DNA of 64,000 nt from Paracoccus sp. TOH. Lineage in GTDB: Bacteria > Pseudomonadota > Alphaproteobacteria > Rhodobacterales > Rhodobacteraceae. The position numbers and the translations under genes are program-made. The notes under the pieces were generated by a model that worked only from the letters and a program-made list of their open reading frames with translations, was not told the origin of the DNA and ran no database searches. Shown piece by piece: positions 3,604 to 40,155 of the stretch (position 1 is the first letter of the stretch; every line of letters starts with the position of its first letter). The stretch lies in assembly GCF_030388245.1 (NCBI RefSeq), contig NZ_CP098361.1:929001-993000 (forward strand), given 5' to 3'.

Positions 3604-5805
3604 ATGTCGGACGCCACGCTGCACGATCACGACGCCCGGCTTTCGGCCTGTCCGGCCTGCGATGCGGCGCCGCTGGCGCAGCGGATCGCCGCGGCCAAGG
3701 GCGGGCAGGGCGAGGTGATCCTGTCGCTGCCGACCATCCATTGCGCGACCTGCATCACCGATGTCGAACGGGTGCTGAACCGCCATCCCGGCGTCCGCGC
3801 CGCGCGGGTCAACCTGACGCTGCGCCGCGTCGCCGTGGATGCGCCCGGCCTGACCGCCGAGGAGCTGATCCCGGTGGTCGAAAGCATCGGCTATGAGGCG
3901 CATGAGCTCGACCCCGCCGCCTTGTCGGCCAGTGCCGCCGACCGCCAGGGCCGCGACATCCTGATGCGCATCGGCGTGTCGGGCTTTGCGATGATGAACA
4001 TCATGATCCTGTCGGTCGCGGTCTGGTCGGGGGCCGAGGCCGCGACGCGCGACATGTTCCACTGGATCTCCGGCGCCATCGCCCTGCCGACCGTGGCCTT
4101 CGCCGGCCGCCCCTTCTTCTCCAGCGCCTGGCGGGGGCTGCGGCACGGCCGGCTGGGCATGGACGTGCCGATCTCGCTGGCGCTGATCCTGGCCAGCGCC
4201 ATCTCGGTCTACGAGACGCTGCATTCCGGCCATCACGCCTATTTCGACGCGGCGGTGATGCTGTGCTTCTTCCTGCTGATCGGGCGCTATCTGGATTATC
4301 GCACCCGCGCCGTCGCCCGCTCTGCCGCCGAGGAACTGACCGCGCTGGAGGTGCCGCGCGCCTTCCGCGTCACCGCCGCGGGCGACGAGCCGGTGCCGGT
4401 GGCCGAGCTGAGCCCCGGCGACCTGATCCGCATCCGCCCCGGCGCCCGCATCCCTGCCGATGGCGAGATCGCCGAGGGCAGCAGCGAGATCGACCGCTCG
4501 CTTTTGACCGGCGAGAGCATTCCGGTTCCCGCCGGTCCCGGCCTCGCACTTTCGGCGGGCGAGGTGAACCTGACCGGACCGCTGGTCATGCGGGTGACCG
4601 CGGCCGGGCGCGACAGCTCGCTGGCGCGGCTGACGGCGCTGGTGGCGGCGGCGGAATCGGCGCGTGGCCATTACACCGGCCTCGCCGACCGCGCCTCGCG
4701 GCTCTATTCGCCGCTGGTGCATCTTCTGGCCTTCTGCAGTTTTCTCGGCTGGTATCTGACCACGCACGACCTGCGGCTGGCGGTGAACGTGGCGGCGGCG
4801 GTGTTGATCATCACCTGCCCCTGCGCCTTGGGACTGGCGGTGCCGGCGGTGATCACCGCGGCCTCGGGCCGGCTGTTCCGGCGCGGCATGCTGATCAAGG
4901 ACGGAACCGCGCTGGAGCGGCTGGCCGAGGTCGATGCCGTGGTCTTCGACAAGACCGGCACCCTGACCATGGGCGTGCCGCAACTGGTGTCGCTCGACCC
5001 GATCCCGATGGATGCCCGCCCCGCGGCGCTGGCCTTGGCGCAGGGCTCGGGGCATCCCTTGTCGCAGGCGCTGACGCAGGCGCTGCGCGAGGCCGGCACC
5101 GAGCCCGCCGCGCTGACCGATCTGCGCGAGGTGCCGGGTTATGGCATCGCCGGAACCTGGCAGGGGCGCGAGCTGCGGCTGGGCCGCGCCGACTGGATGG
5201 GGGCCGAGCATGGCGATGCGACGCTTTCGGCAAGCTGGCTGTCGCTTGGGCAAGAGGCGATGCCGATCCGGCTGGAATTCTCGGACCGGCTGCGGCCGGG
5301 CGCCGAGACCTGCGTGGCGCGGCTGCTTGCATCGGGCCGGCGGGTGATGCTGTTGTCGGGCGATGCGGCGCCGGTGGTTCGGGATCTGGCGCAGCGGCTG
5401 GGCATCGCGGATTGGCGGGCCGGCGTCACTCCGCTGGACAAGGCCGAGGCGCTGCGCGATCTCGACATGCAGGGGCTGCATGCGCTGATGGTCGGCGACG
5501 GGCTGAACGATACCGCCGCCCTGGCCGAGGCGCATGTCTCGATCTCGCCCGCTTCGGCGCTGGATGCGGCGCGCACCGCGTCGGATATCGTGCTGATGGG
5601 CAGCGATCTTGCTCCGGTTGCCGAGGCTCTCGATCTTGCGCGCAATGCCCGGCGGCGGATCAAGGAGAACTTCGCCATTTCGCTGGGCTACAATGTGGTG
5701 GCGGTGCCATTCGCCATCGCCGGTTTCGCGACCCCGTTGATGGCGGCGCTGGCCATGTCATTGAGTTCGATCAGCGTGACGCTGAACGCGCTGCGGCTGC
5801 GGTAA
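3604..5805 (+). CDS. ccoI: Copper-translocating P1B-type ATPase CcoI (FixI)
   Basis: CcoI moves copper across the membrane for the binuclear centre of cbb3 oxidase. The 733-residue protein has an N-terminal CPACD motif, a heavy-metal domain with HCATC near residue 44, and membrane helices. The intramembrane CPC motif (ITCPCALG) lies near residue 404, the phosphorylation motif DKTGTLT near 450 and the hinge GDGLNDT near 630. All key P1B-ATPase elements are intact. It follows ccoH directly and precedes ccoS, the normal order of the assembly operon. Confidence 0.95.
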   Translation: MSDATLHDHDARLSACPACDAAPLAQRIAAAKGGQGEVILSLPTIHCATCITDVERVLNRHPGVRAARVNLTLRRVAVDAPGLTAEELIPVVESIGYEAHELDPAALSASAADRQGRDILMRIGVSGFAMMNIMILSVAVWSGAEAATRDMFHWISGAIALPTVAFAGRPFFSSAWRGLRHGRLGMDVPISLALILASAISVYETLHSGHHAYFDAAVMLCFFLLIGRYLDYRTRAVARSAAEELTALEVPRAFRVTAAGDEPVPVAELSPGDLIRIRPGARIPADGEIAEGSSEIDRSLLTGESIPVPAGPGLALSAGEVNLTGPLVMRVTAAGRDSSLARLTALVAAAESARGHYTGLADRASRLYSPLVHLLAFCSFLGWYLTTHDLRLAVNVAAAVLIITCPCALGLAVPAVITAASGRLFRRGMLIKDGTALERLAEVDAVVFDKTGTLTMGVPQLVSLDPIPMDARPAALALAQGSGHPLSQALTQALREAGTEPAALTDLREVPGYGIAGTWQGRELRLGRADWMGAEHGDATLSASWLSLGQEAMPIRLEFSDRLRPGAETCVARLLASGRRVMLLSGDAAPVVRDLAQRLGIADWRAGVTPLDKAEALRDLDMQGLHALMVGDGLNDTAALAEAHVSISPASALDAARTASDIVLMGSDLAPVAEALDLARNARRRIKENFAISLGYNVVAVPFAIAGFATPLMAALAMSLSSISVTLNALRLR

Positions 5806-38918: not shown

Positions 38919-39045
38919 GGCACCCTCCATTCTTCTCAATATGGGTGGCAAATGCCCCGGCGAAAAGCCCCGTGCCGCAACCGGCGCGGCAGTTGGGCCT
39001 GCTTCGGCCGATTCCGGGCGGGGATGCGTGCCGGCGCTGGAAAAT

Positions 39046-39060
39046 GTTCGCTAAATGTTC
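39046..39060 (+). promoter_or_regulatory. LexA (SOS) box, alphaproteobacterial GTTC-N7-GTTC type
   Basis: GTTC (39046-39049), seven bases GCTAAAT, then GTTC (39057-39060) lie 12 bases before the radical SAM gene. This direct repeat is the established LexA operator form in alphaproteobacteria. The position over the likely start of transcription fits repression. Confidence 0.75.
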
Positions 39061-39072
39061 TAGTGTGGCGGC

Positions 39073-40155
39073 ATGACCCTGCCACCCCGCAACCCCGACG
39101 AGATCCTGCGCGCCCGCGGCGCCGACTCGCGCCCCGCCGGCCGCTTCGAGCCCTATCAGGCCGAGCGCCAGCATGACGGCTGGGACATCCCCGAGGAACA
39201 GGCCCTGCTGCGCACCGAGGTCGCGCAGGAGCGGGCGCGCTCGATCATCACTCGCAACACCTCGCCCGACATCCCCTTCGACCGCTCGATCAACCCCTAT
39301 CGCGGCTGCGAGCATGGCTGCATCTATTGCTTTGCCCGGCCGAGCCACGCCTATCTGGGCCTGTCGCCGGGGCTGGATTTCGAGACGCGCATCACCGCCA
39401 AGCCCAATGCCCCCGAACTGCTGGAAGCCGAGATCGGCCGGCGCGGCTATGCGGTGGCGCCCATCGCCTTCGGCACCAATACCGACCCCTACCAGCCCGT
39501 CGAGGCGAAGCTGGGCATCATGCGCGGTTGCCTGCAGGTCCTGCATGACTGGAACCATCCGCTGAGCCTGGTGACGCGCGGCGCCACGGTGATGCGCGAC
39601 CTTGACCTGCTGGGGGCGATGGCGGCCAAGGGACAGGTGATGGCCGGCGTCTCGATCACCACGCTGGACGCGGAGCTGGCGCGGCAGATGGAGCCGCGGG
39701 CCCCGGCGCCCTCGACCCGGCTGCGGATGATCCGCGGCCTGGCCGAGGCGGGCGTGCCGGTGCGGGTCATGGTGGCGCCGGTGATCCCGGTGCTGACCGA
39801 GCACGAGATGGAGCGCATCATGCAGGCCGCCCGCGATGCCGGGGCCAGCGCCGCCAGCATGATCCAGGTCCGGCTGCCGCTGGAGGTGGCGCCGCTGTTC
39901 CGCGACTGGCTGGACCGTCACCATCCCGGCAAGGCGGCGCATGTCATGGCGCGGGTGCAGGCGATGCGCGGCGGGCGCGACAACGATCCGCGTTTCGGCA
40001 GCCGGATGCGGGGCGAGGGGGTCGAGGCGGAACTCCTGCGCCAGCGTTTCCGGCTGGCCCGTAAGCGGCTGGGGCTGGTGCGCGAAGCCGAGGTGCTGGA
40101 TTGCAGCCGCTTCGGCCCGCCGCCCCGGCCGGGGGACCAGTTGCCGCTGTTCTGA
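39073..40155 (+). CDS. PA0069-family radical SAM protein (SplB-related)
   Basis: The 360-residue protein binds a 4Fe-4S cluster through C79-x3-C83-x2-C86 (RGCEHGCIYCFARP) and has further radical SAM features (FGTNTDPYQPVE, SLVTRGATVMRDLDLL, GVSITTLD). It belongs to the PA0069 group, related to spore photoproduct lyase, with no proven reaction. An SOS-type LexA box precedes it, and PA0069 itself is known as a LexA-controlled gene in Pseudomonas aeruginosa, so a role in DNA damage response is likely. The product ends QLPLF, reminiscent of beta-clamp-binding motifs of the QLxLF kind. Confidence 0.88.
   Translation: MTLPPRNPDEILRARGADSRPAGRFEPYQAERQHDGWDIPEEQALLRTEVAQERARSIITRNTSPDIPFDRSINPYRGCEHGCIYCFARPSHAYLGLSPGLDFETRITAKPNAPELLEAEIGRRGYAVAPIAFGTNTDPYQPVEAKLGIMRGCLQVLHDWNHPLSLVTRGATVMRDLDLLGAMAAKGQVMAGVSITTLDAELARQMEPRAPAPSTRLRMIRGLAEAGVPVRVMVAPVIPVLTEHEMERIMQAARDAGASAASMIQVRLPLEVAPLFRDWLDRHHPGKAAHVMARVQAMRGGRDNDPRFGSRMRGEGVEAELLRQRFRLARKRLGLVREAEVLDCSRFGPPPRPGDQLPLF

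Follow-up and report, generated by a model that had tools for sequence, protein, structure and literature searches.

LexA sites upstream of splB genes of alpha- and beta-Proteobacteria were described in 2012, with Paracoccus denitrificans listed in the legend of the alphaproteobacterial figure (PMC3323433). The passages of that paper that deal with splB argue that two divergent LexA motifs on the same gene mean an SOS function. In passages of later papers, COG1533 SplB was given as SOS-regulated in several species, with a P. aeruginosa SOS study among the citations and without PA0069 being named (PMC8565304, 2021), and a radical S-adenosylmethionine (SAM) protein was placed in Gram-positive and Balneolaeota LexA regulons (PMC7739468, 2020). 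The product was called a photoreactivation enzyme in 2012, only a radical SAM protein in 2020 and DNA repair SplB in 2021, and a clamp motif is not mentioned in the relevant passages of these three papers. Another paper links SplB-like proteins to SOS operons in the passage concerned (PMC3765255), and the radical SAM protein vnz_31145 is listed with the values 19.97 and 1.31 in an excerpt without its column heads (PMC9380542); these values presumably are the change in RNA sequencing after mitomycin and the enrichment in LexA chromatin immunoprecipitation. As far as naming tells, the splB and COG1533 proteins belong to the same family as the subject of this analysis, a PA0069-family radical SAM protein encoded in a 64-kb stretch of DNA from Paracoccus sp. 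TOH (64,000 nucleotides, here called the window, in whose numbering all positions are given), and their genes are under LexA control of the same kind as that proposed here. No paper treating PA0069 or Rv2578c together with LexA was found in the literature searched. We consider it fairly probable that the gene encodes an SOS-induced, clamp-tethered radical SAM enzyme with a lyase-like fold that processes a base lesion at replication forks or gaps.

The LexA-type operator, GTTCGCTAAATGTTC, is an exact GTTC-N7-GTTC match at 39046..39060 on the plus strand. As noted in the sequence-only reading that preceded this work, it lies 12 bases (39061-39072) before the start codon, an ATG at 39073. That reading had proposed SOS control and had named a lack of conservation of the box in related Paracoccus species as one outcome that would refute it; the proposal withstood this test, with the exact box in 76 of 77 genus loci (30/30 in a first and 46/47 in a later set, the own locus included). 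It was also present in 34/35 and 13/13 family loci and in 69/75 loci of other alphaproteobacteria, giving 192 of 200 alphaproteobacterial orthologue loci, and control spacers of 5, 6, 8 and 9 bases were found in 2, 5, 7 and 8 of the same 200. The failing genus locus (L413) had one mismatch, as did four of the six failing loci of other alphaproteobacteria. Matches to NF033668 above the cut-off were obtained in 77 of 81 genus genomes (two others had no match, and G001 and G031, with fragmentary matches, were left out), 139 of 198 family genomes and 144 of 299 Pseudomonadota genomes. The family sample comprised 43 loci from the 139 genomes above the cut-off (30 best-scoring and 13 low-scoring) and five from the Pseudomonadota search. 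In all sets the region searched for boxes ran from -560 to -150 relative to the CxxxC codon. Two loci without a parsable gene (L242 and L249) were dropped before the counts.

Outside the Alphaproteobacteria the gene was preceded by other LexA operators, as the sequence-only reading had supposed for distant lineages. Among 48 loci of other Pseudomonadota, GTTC-N7-GTTC was found in none and CTGT-N8-ACAG in 33, with no matches for the N7 and N9 controls; two more loci carried TTAG-N6-TACTA (N5 and N7 controls 0), which we take to be the Xanthomonas LexA type. An actinobacterial-type set of 80 loci (L250-L329) was obtained from 116 stretches retrieved with a motif pattern, L283 and L322 being titled as other groups; in four of the 80 the upstream region was too short, and 12 broke off ahead of the stop codon. 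GAAC-N4-GTTC was present in 49 of the 76 with a sufficient upstream region, and the controls gave 1 (N2), 0 (N3), 7 (N5), 0 (N6) and 1 (inverted). The 24 sequences of this set in the alignment, a set grouped here with the Rv2578c family (NF038135, homologous to the family treated here), show 31-39% identity to the Paracoccus protein, and most of the set shares with it a clade-matched box and the tail motif described below. CTGT, GTTC-N7 and GAAC-N4 operators are described as such in the passages on LexA motifs of PMC3323433.

A candidate promoter encloses the box. A predicted -35 element, TGGAAA (39038..39043, plus strand), and a predicted -10 element, TAGTGT (39061..39066, plus strand), are 17 bases apart, and the LexA-type box lies within this spacer. 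Both elements were assigned by their conservation at fixed offsets. T[TG]G stood exactly at -8 from the box in 20/30 and 36/46 genus loci and in 20/34 and 8/13 family loci, TAnnnT at +15 in 18/30 and 34/46 and in 16/34 and 10/13, and ATG at +27 in 21/30 and 36/46 and in 19/34 and 11/13, respectively; the remaining offsets printed for the first genus and family sets reached a maximum of five loci each. Other alphaproteobacteria did not share these offsets (4, 3 and 7 of 68 loci for -8, +15 and +27). The information per position around the box formed two GTTC islands, mostly with a T before each, and the flanks were otherwise poorly conserved. Because the operator lies between a -35/-10 pair 17 bases apart and the ATG stands at the expected transcription start, bound LexA would be a direct obstacle to the polymerase, and the predicted mRNA would have no leader, its 5' end being the ATG at 39073. 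Separately, in many alphaproteobacteria outside the family (L120-L149) the box has the sequence GTTCTTGATTTGTTC or a close variant, and the -35 element (TTGATT) may be part of it; TAnnnT was present at +26 or +27 from the box in 18 of 68 alphaproteobacterial loci outside the family.

In the whole genome, GTTC-N7-GTTC was found 129 times, against 68 times for the pattern read backwards. When the spacer was restricted to an A/T-rich form and a T was required next to the second GTTC, on its 5' side (GTTCNNNWWNTGTTC), there were 11 matches against 0 backwards. Boxes were located close upstream of lexA (L010; TIGR00498), 108 bases before the profile match of recA and 81 bases upstream of uvrA. Further boxes stood by an SRAP gene and a divergent ImuA/ImuB-type operon (L041; the ImuA match, at 67.6 bits, is under its cut-off of 150) and before a second operon with an ImuB-type protein (L031), where the ImuA name was assigned by eye, without a family match, and the neighbouring open reading frame matches PF00817. 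Strong boxes also preceded two similar Y-family polymerase genes (L037 and L038) on the same 226-kb contig (contig 4). The boxes were scored on their seven spacer positions, with training on seven known sites, each left out of its own score; the ranking covered 105 of the 129 sites (24 were left out). The box at 39046-39060 was 9th of 101 distinct sequences. It ranked above the boxes of lexA, recA and uvrA, the genes that the sequence-only reading had suggested looking for, together with this one, among the top hits of a genome scan.

The gene (39073..40155, plus strand, with a predicted leaderless start) encodes a protein of 360 aa. Its assignment to the PA0069 family by the sequence-only reading was borne out by the NF033668 (rSAM_PA0069) model, with 480.7 bits against a cut-off of 360. 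PF04055 was the sole Pfam family found (57.6 bits). The Rv2578c model NF038135 gave 240.3 bits, below its cut-off of 430, with homology spanning residues 39-286. The top database match had 95% identity, and the closest listed relatives, which were Paracoccus where named, had at most 92%. For position-wise comparison an alignment of 100 sequences was built from this protein and 99 of 247 parsed loci chosen for diversity. The CxxxCxxC motif for the 4Fe-4S cluster (C79, C83 and C86; 39307..39330, plus strand) was invariant in 100/100 members, partly by construction, since such a motif was used to locate them.

The AlphaFold2 model of the protein had a mean predicted local distance difference test (pLDDT) score of 92.9, and the nearest solved structure of the predicted fold was spore photoproduct lyase (4FHC and related entries). 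In sequence searches of the PDB, no match was found with the single protein up to an E value of 1, and with a profile there were only partial matches, the best being NifB (0.00074), with spore photoproduct lyase at 0.023. A profile comparison with a lyase-like sequence, L366, aligned only residues 185-305. The Paracoccus protein and spore photoproduct lyase share the overall fold, as predicted, the CxxxCxxC cluster and the tyrosine before the last cluster cysteine. They differ at the hydrogen donor, C140 of the solved lyase, which is missing in all aligned members. The corresponding residue is T135 (39475..39477, plus strand) in three concordant MAFFT modes, and cysteine was present there in 0/34 and 0/100 members of the alignments. 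The description of the protein as photolyase-like in the sequence-only reading therefore stands for the predicted fold and fails for the donor cysteine and the curated lyase model. As the donor is absent, the lesion probably differs from the spore photoproduct, or else the enzyme completes the last hydrogen transfer by another route.

The protein ends in QLPLF (residues 356-360; 40138..40152, plus strand), which matches the clamp-binding motif as defined in passages of PMC11139829. The strict motif was taken as Q-phi-x-[L/M]-[F/L] or Q-phi-x-[L/M]-x-[F/L], with A, V, L, I or M as phi, and QLPLF agrees with it as a predicted beta-clamp ligand. A loose pattern, Q..[LMI][FLW] or Q[LMIV].L.[FLVM] within the last 11 residues, which is looser than the published form, was present in 30/30 genus, 32/35 family, 70/75 other alphaproteobacterial, 47/48 other Pseudomonadota and 51/68 actinobacterial-type proteins, and in 46/47 genus and 12/13 family proteins of the later sets. 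This amounted to 288 of 316 orthologues. For comparison, 416 other predicted proteins were taken from the window, from further stretches of the same genome and from the actinobacterial-type loci; four of them matched, one being a truncated family member. The resemblance to a clamp-binding motif is thus firmer than the sequence-only reading had supposed. The apparent loss of the tail in L444 is not real, since that locus ends at a contig edge. In shuffled 20-residue tails the pentapeptide appeared in at most 7 per group. The strict motif was present in 30/30 genus, 32/35 family and 59/75 other alphaproteobacterial proteins. In the 100-sequence alignment the conserved positions were Q356 (96 sequences), L359 (99) and 360 as F or L (87), with variation at residues 351-353 and 355; MAFFT may have pulled the tails into register, and the pattern counts are independent of this alignment. 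Conserved Q, L and F or L amid variable neighbours look like a short linear motif carried by a loose tail. The last ten residues had a pLDDT of 73 in the AlphaFold2 model. Motifs of the Q-phi-x-L-F type, some of them at the extreme C-terminus as in this tail, recruit Pol II, Pol IV and Pol V according to passages of PMC11139829; these are polymerases, whereas the protein described here is a radical SAM enzyme, and the chain of the solved lyase ends in QYFT. Binding of the QLPLF tail to the clamp is suggested by its sequence. Pol II, Pol IV and Pol V are linked to DNA damage.

In the mechanism that we favour, LexA bound to the GTTC-N7-GTTC box between the -35 and -10 elements would block RNA polymerase in this species. 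Upon DNA damage LexA would be cleaved and a leaderless mRNA would be made from the ATG. The product would be a 4Fe-4S radical SAM enzyme with the spore photoproduct lyase fold, whose flexible C-terminal QLxLF tail would dock on the DnaN sliding clamp and so bring the enzyme to replication forks or gaps. There it would reverse or process a base lesion by radical chemistry, with DNA as the probable substrate and DNA repair as the probable role.

Four other explanations were weighed against this mechanism. A fortuitous occurrence of the box, with the gene outside LexA control, is an almost negligible possibility. The exact pattern has only eight fixed bases, and its two matches in the 64-kb window are not unusual for a pattern so frequent in the genome: 1.05 were expected, at least two were reached in 27 of 100 shuffles, and significance from the lone window match was rejected. 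It is by its conservation in the orthologues, where most flanking positions vary, that the box is far beyond chance, and a chance origin was rejected on this ground; before lon, a GTTC-oriented box was found in 0/30 genus loci, though the reverse orientation occurred in 14/30. It is also unlikely that the protein is a true spore-photoproduct-type lyase which reverses UV thymine photoproducts in vegetative cells, as the splB naming of 2012 assumed. Such an activity would agree with the nearest solved fold and with Tyr85, which is present in 100/100 members and corresponds to the tyrosine preceding the last cluster cysteine in L366; F87 occupies the position of the next tyrosine (Y in 19/100 and F in 81/100 members). 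Against it stand the missing donor cysteine (of the columns occupied in this protein, only two outside the cluster reach at least 20/100 cysteines, with 20 and 25) and the TIGR04070 lyase model, which gave 10.1 bits against a cut-off of 400. L366 reached 274.6 bits with TIGR04070 (also below 400) and only 19.8 with NF033668, and is therefore a separate family. Membership in spore photoproduct lyase was rejected on the TIGR04070 score and the missing cysteine. A search with TIGR03886 as a second lyase in 61 family genomes gave two weak matches, none over the cut-off and none in this genome.

The two other explanations accept SOS induction or leave it aside and concern the substrate and the tail. 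An SOS-induced enzyme acting on protein, RNA or a nucleotide, for example in a replication checkpoint, with the tail bringing it to the clamp to modify a part of the replisome, is rather unlikely. Radical SAM folds of many functions do come next in the structure lists, but the six lyase entries lead every other row listed by about 4 Z units. Finally, instead of binding the clamp, QLxLF could act as a signal in cluster delivery, in degradation or in folding, roles that are generally possible for short conserved C-terminal tails. We regard this as quite improbable, given that the tail follows the published motif position by position (Q1, L4, F/L5 and a free middle; motif passages of PMC11139829) and that the hexapeptide form of the motif is found as well, in 11 of 256 proteins.

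Several observations weigh against the favoured mechanism or its extension to the whole family. The strict motif was present in only 171 of 256 proteins in total, with 26/48 and 24/68 in the two distant groups, where position 2 is often G, Q or P; passages of PMC11139829 describe this position as tolerant to substitution. Even by the loose pattern the tail was missing in 17 of 68 actinobacterial-type proteins, and box and tail co-occurred weakly in that set (34 with both, 8 with the box only, 13 with the tail only and 9 with neither; Fisher p 0.078). A scan for Q[LMF]x[LM][FLW] found no motif in either of the contig-4 Y-family polymerases, so that clamp motifs are not seen in every SOS protein here. 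The exact clade box was missing in 15 of 48 loci of non-alpha Pseudomonadota (two of them of the TTAG type) and in 27 of 76 actinobacterial-type loci, the N5 control of the latter set was not empty (7/76), and orthologues within one clade are not independent of each other. Passages of PMC12924846 describe a role in repair as speculative for a Streptomyces protein of the Rv2578c family and report the inactivation of this protein in one strain, an argument against its being essential.

Some further boxes were observed in the course of the scans. The spacer of the second exact match in the window (3766-3780, minus strand) is rich in G and C, and this match is probably due to chance. Some 50 bases upstream of an EAL-domain gene there is a box whose spacer is A/T-rich (L009 1501-1515); passages of PMC6473078 report a predicted LexA site before the cyclic di-GMP hydrolase gene pde2 in Dinoroseobacter. 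High-scoring boxes, GTTCTCGTAATGTTC and GTTCTCGTTATGTTC, were found on contigs 3 and 5 (L036 1501-1515 and L039 1501-1515), with a helix-turn-helix protein and an unassigned open reading frame as their neighbours. Upstream of lon a box was found in reverse orientation to the gene (L001 1501-1515). In the 14 genus loci mentioned above (of L368-L397), GAAC-N7-GAAC was located at most 400 bases before the LPLRD codon: eight boxes were near -155, five overlapped an ATGAAC start and one was at -177. In some members of the genus, lon may therefore be controlled by LexA.

The argument for SOS control is not new, as the same argument was printed in PMC3323433 in 2012, and as a gene probably under LexA control the locus is a further member of a known case. 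The new part is the conserved clamp-type tail together with the missing lyase cysteine; a link between the PA0069 family and the sliding clamp was not found in the literature searched, which covers few subscription journals. Tail and missing cysteine suggest where the enzyme acts and make it less likely that it simply repeats the mechanism of the spore lyase. We see about an even chance that the PA0069/Rv2578c superfamily forms a widespread class of replisome-tethered SOS radical SAM repair enzymes, with at least four operator types, docked on the clamp, distinct from spore photoproduct lyase and mending a lesion by radical chemistry directly at stalled forks, as an error-free counterpart of the translesion polymerases. 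If this is true, the SOS response of two phyla would regularly include radical repair at the fork, and the substrate of the enzyme would become a short, testable question.
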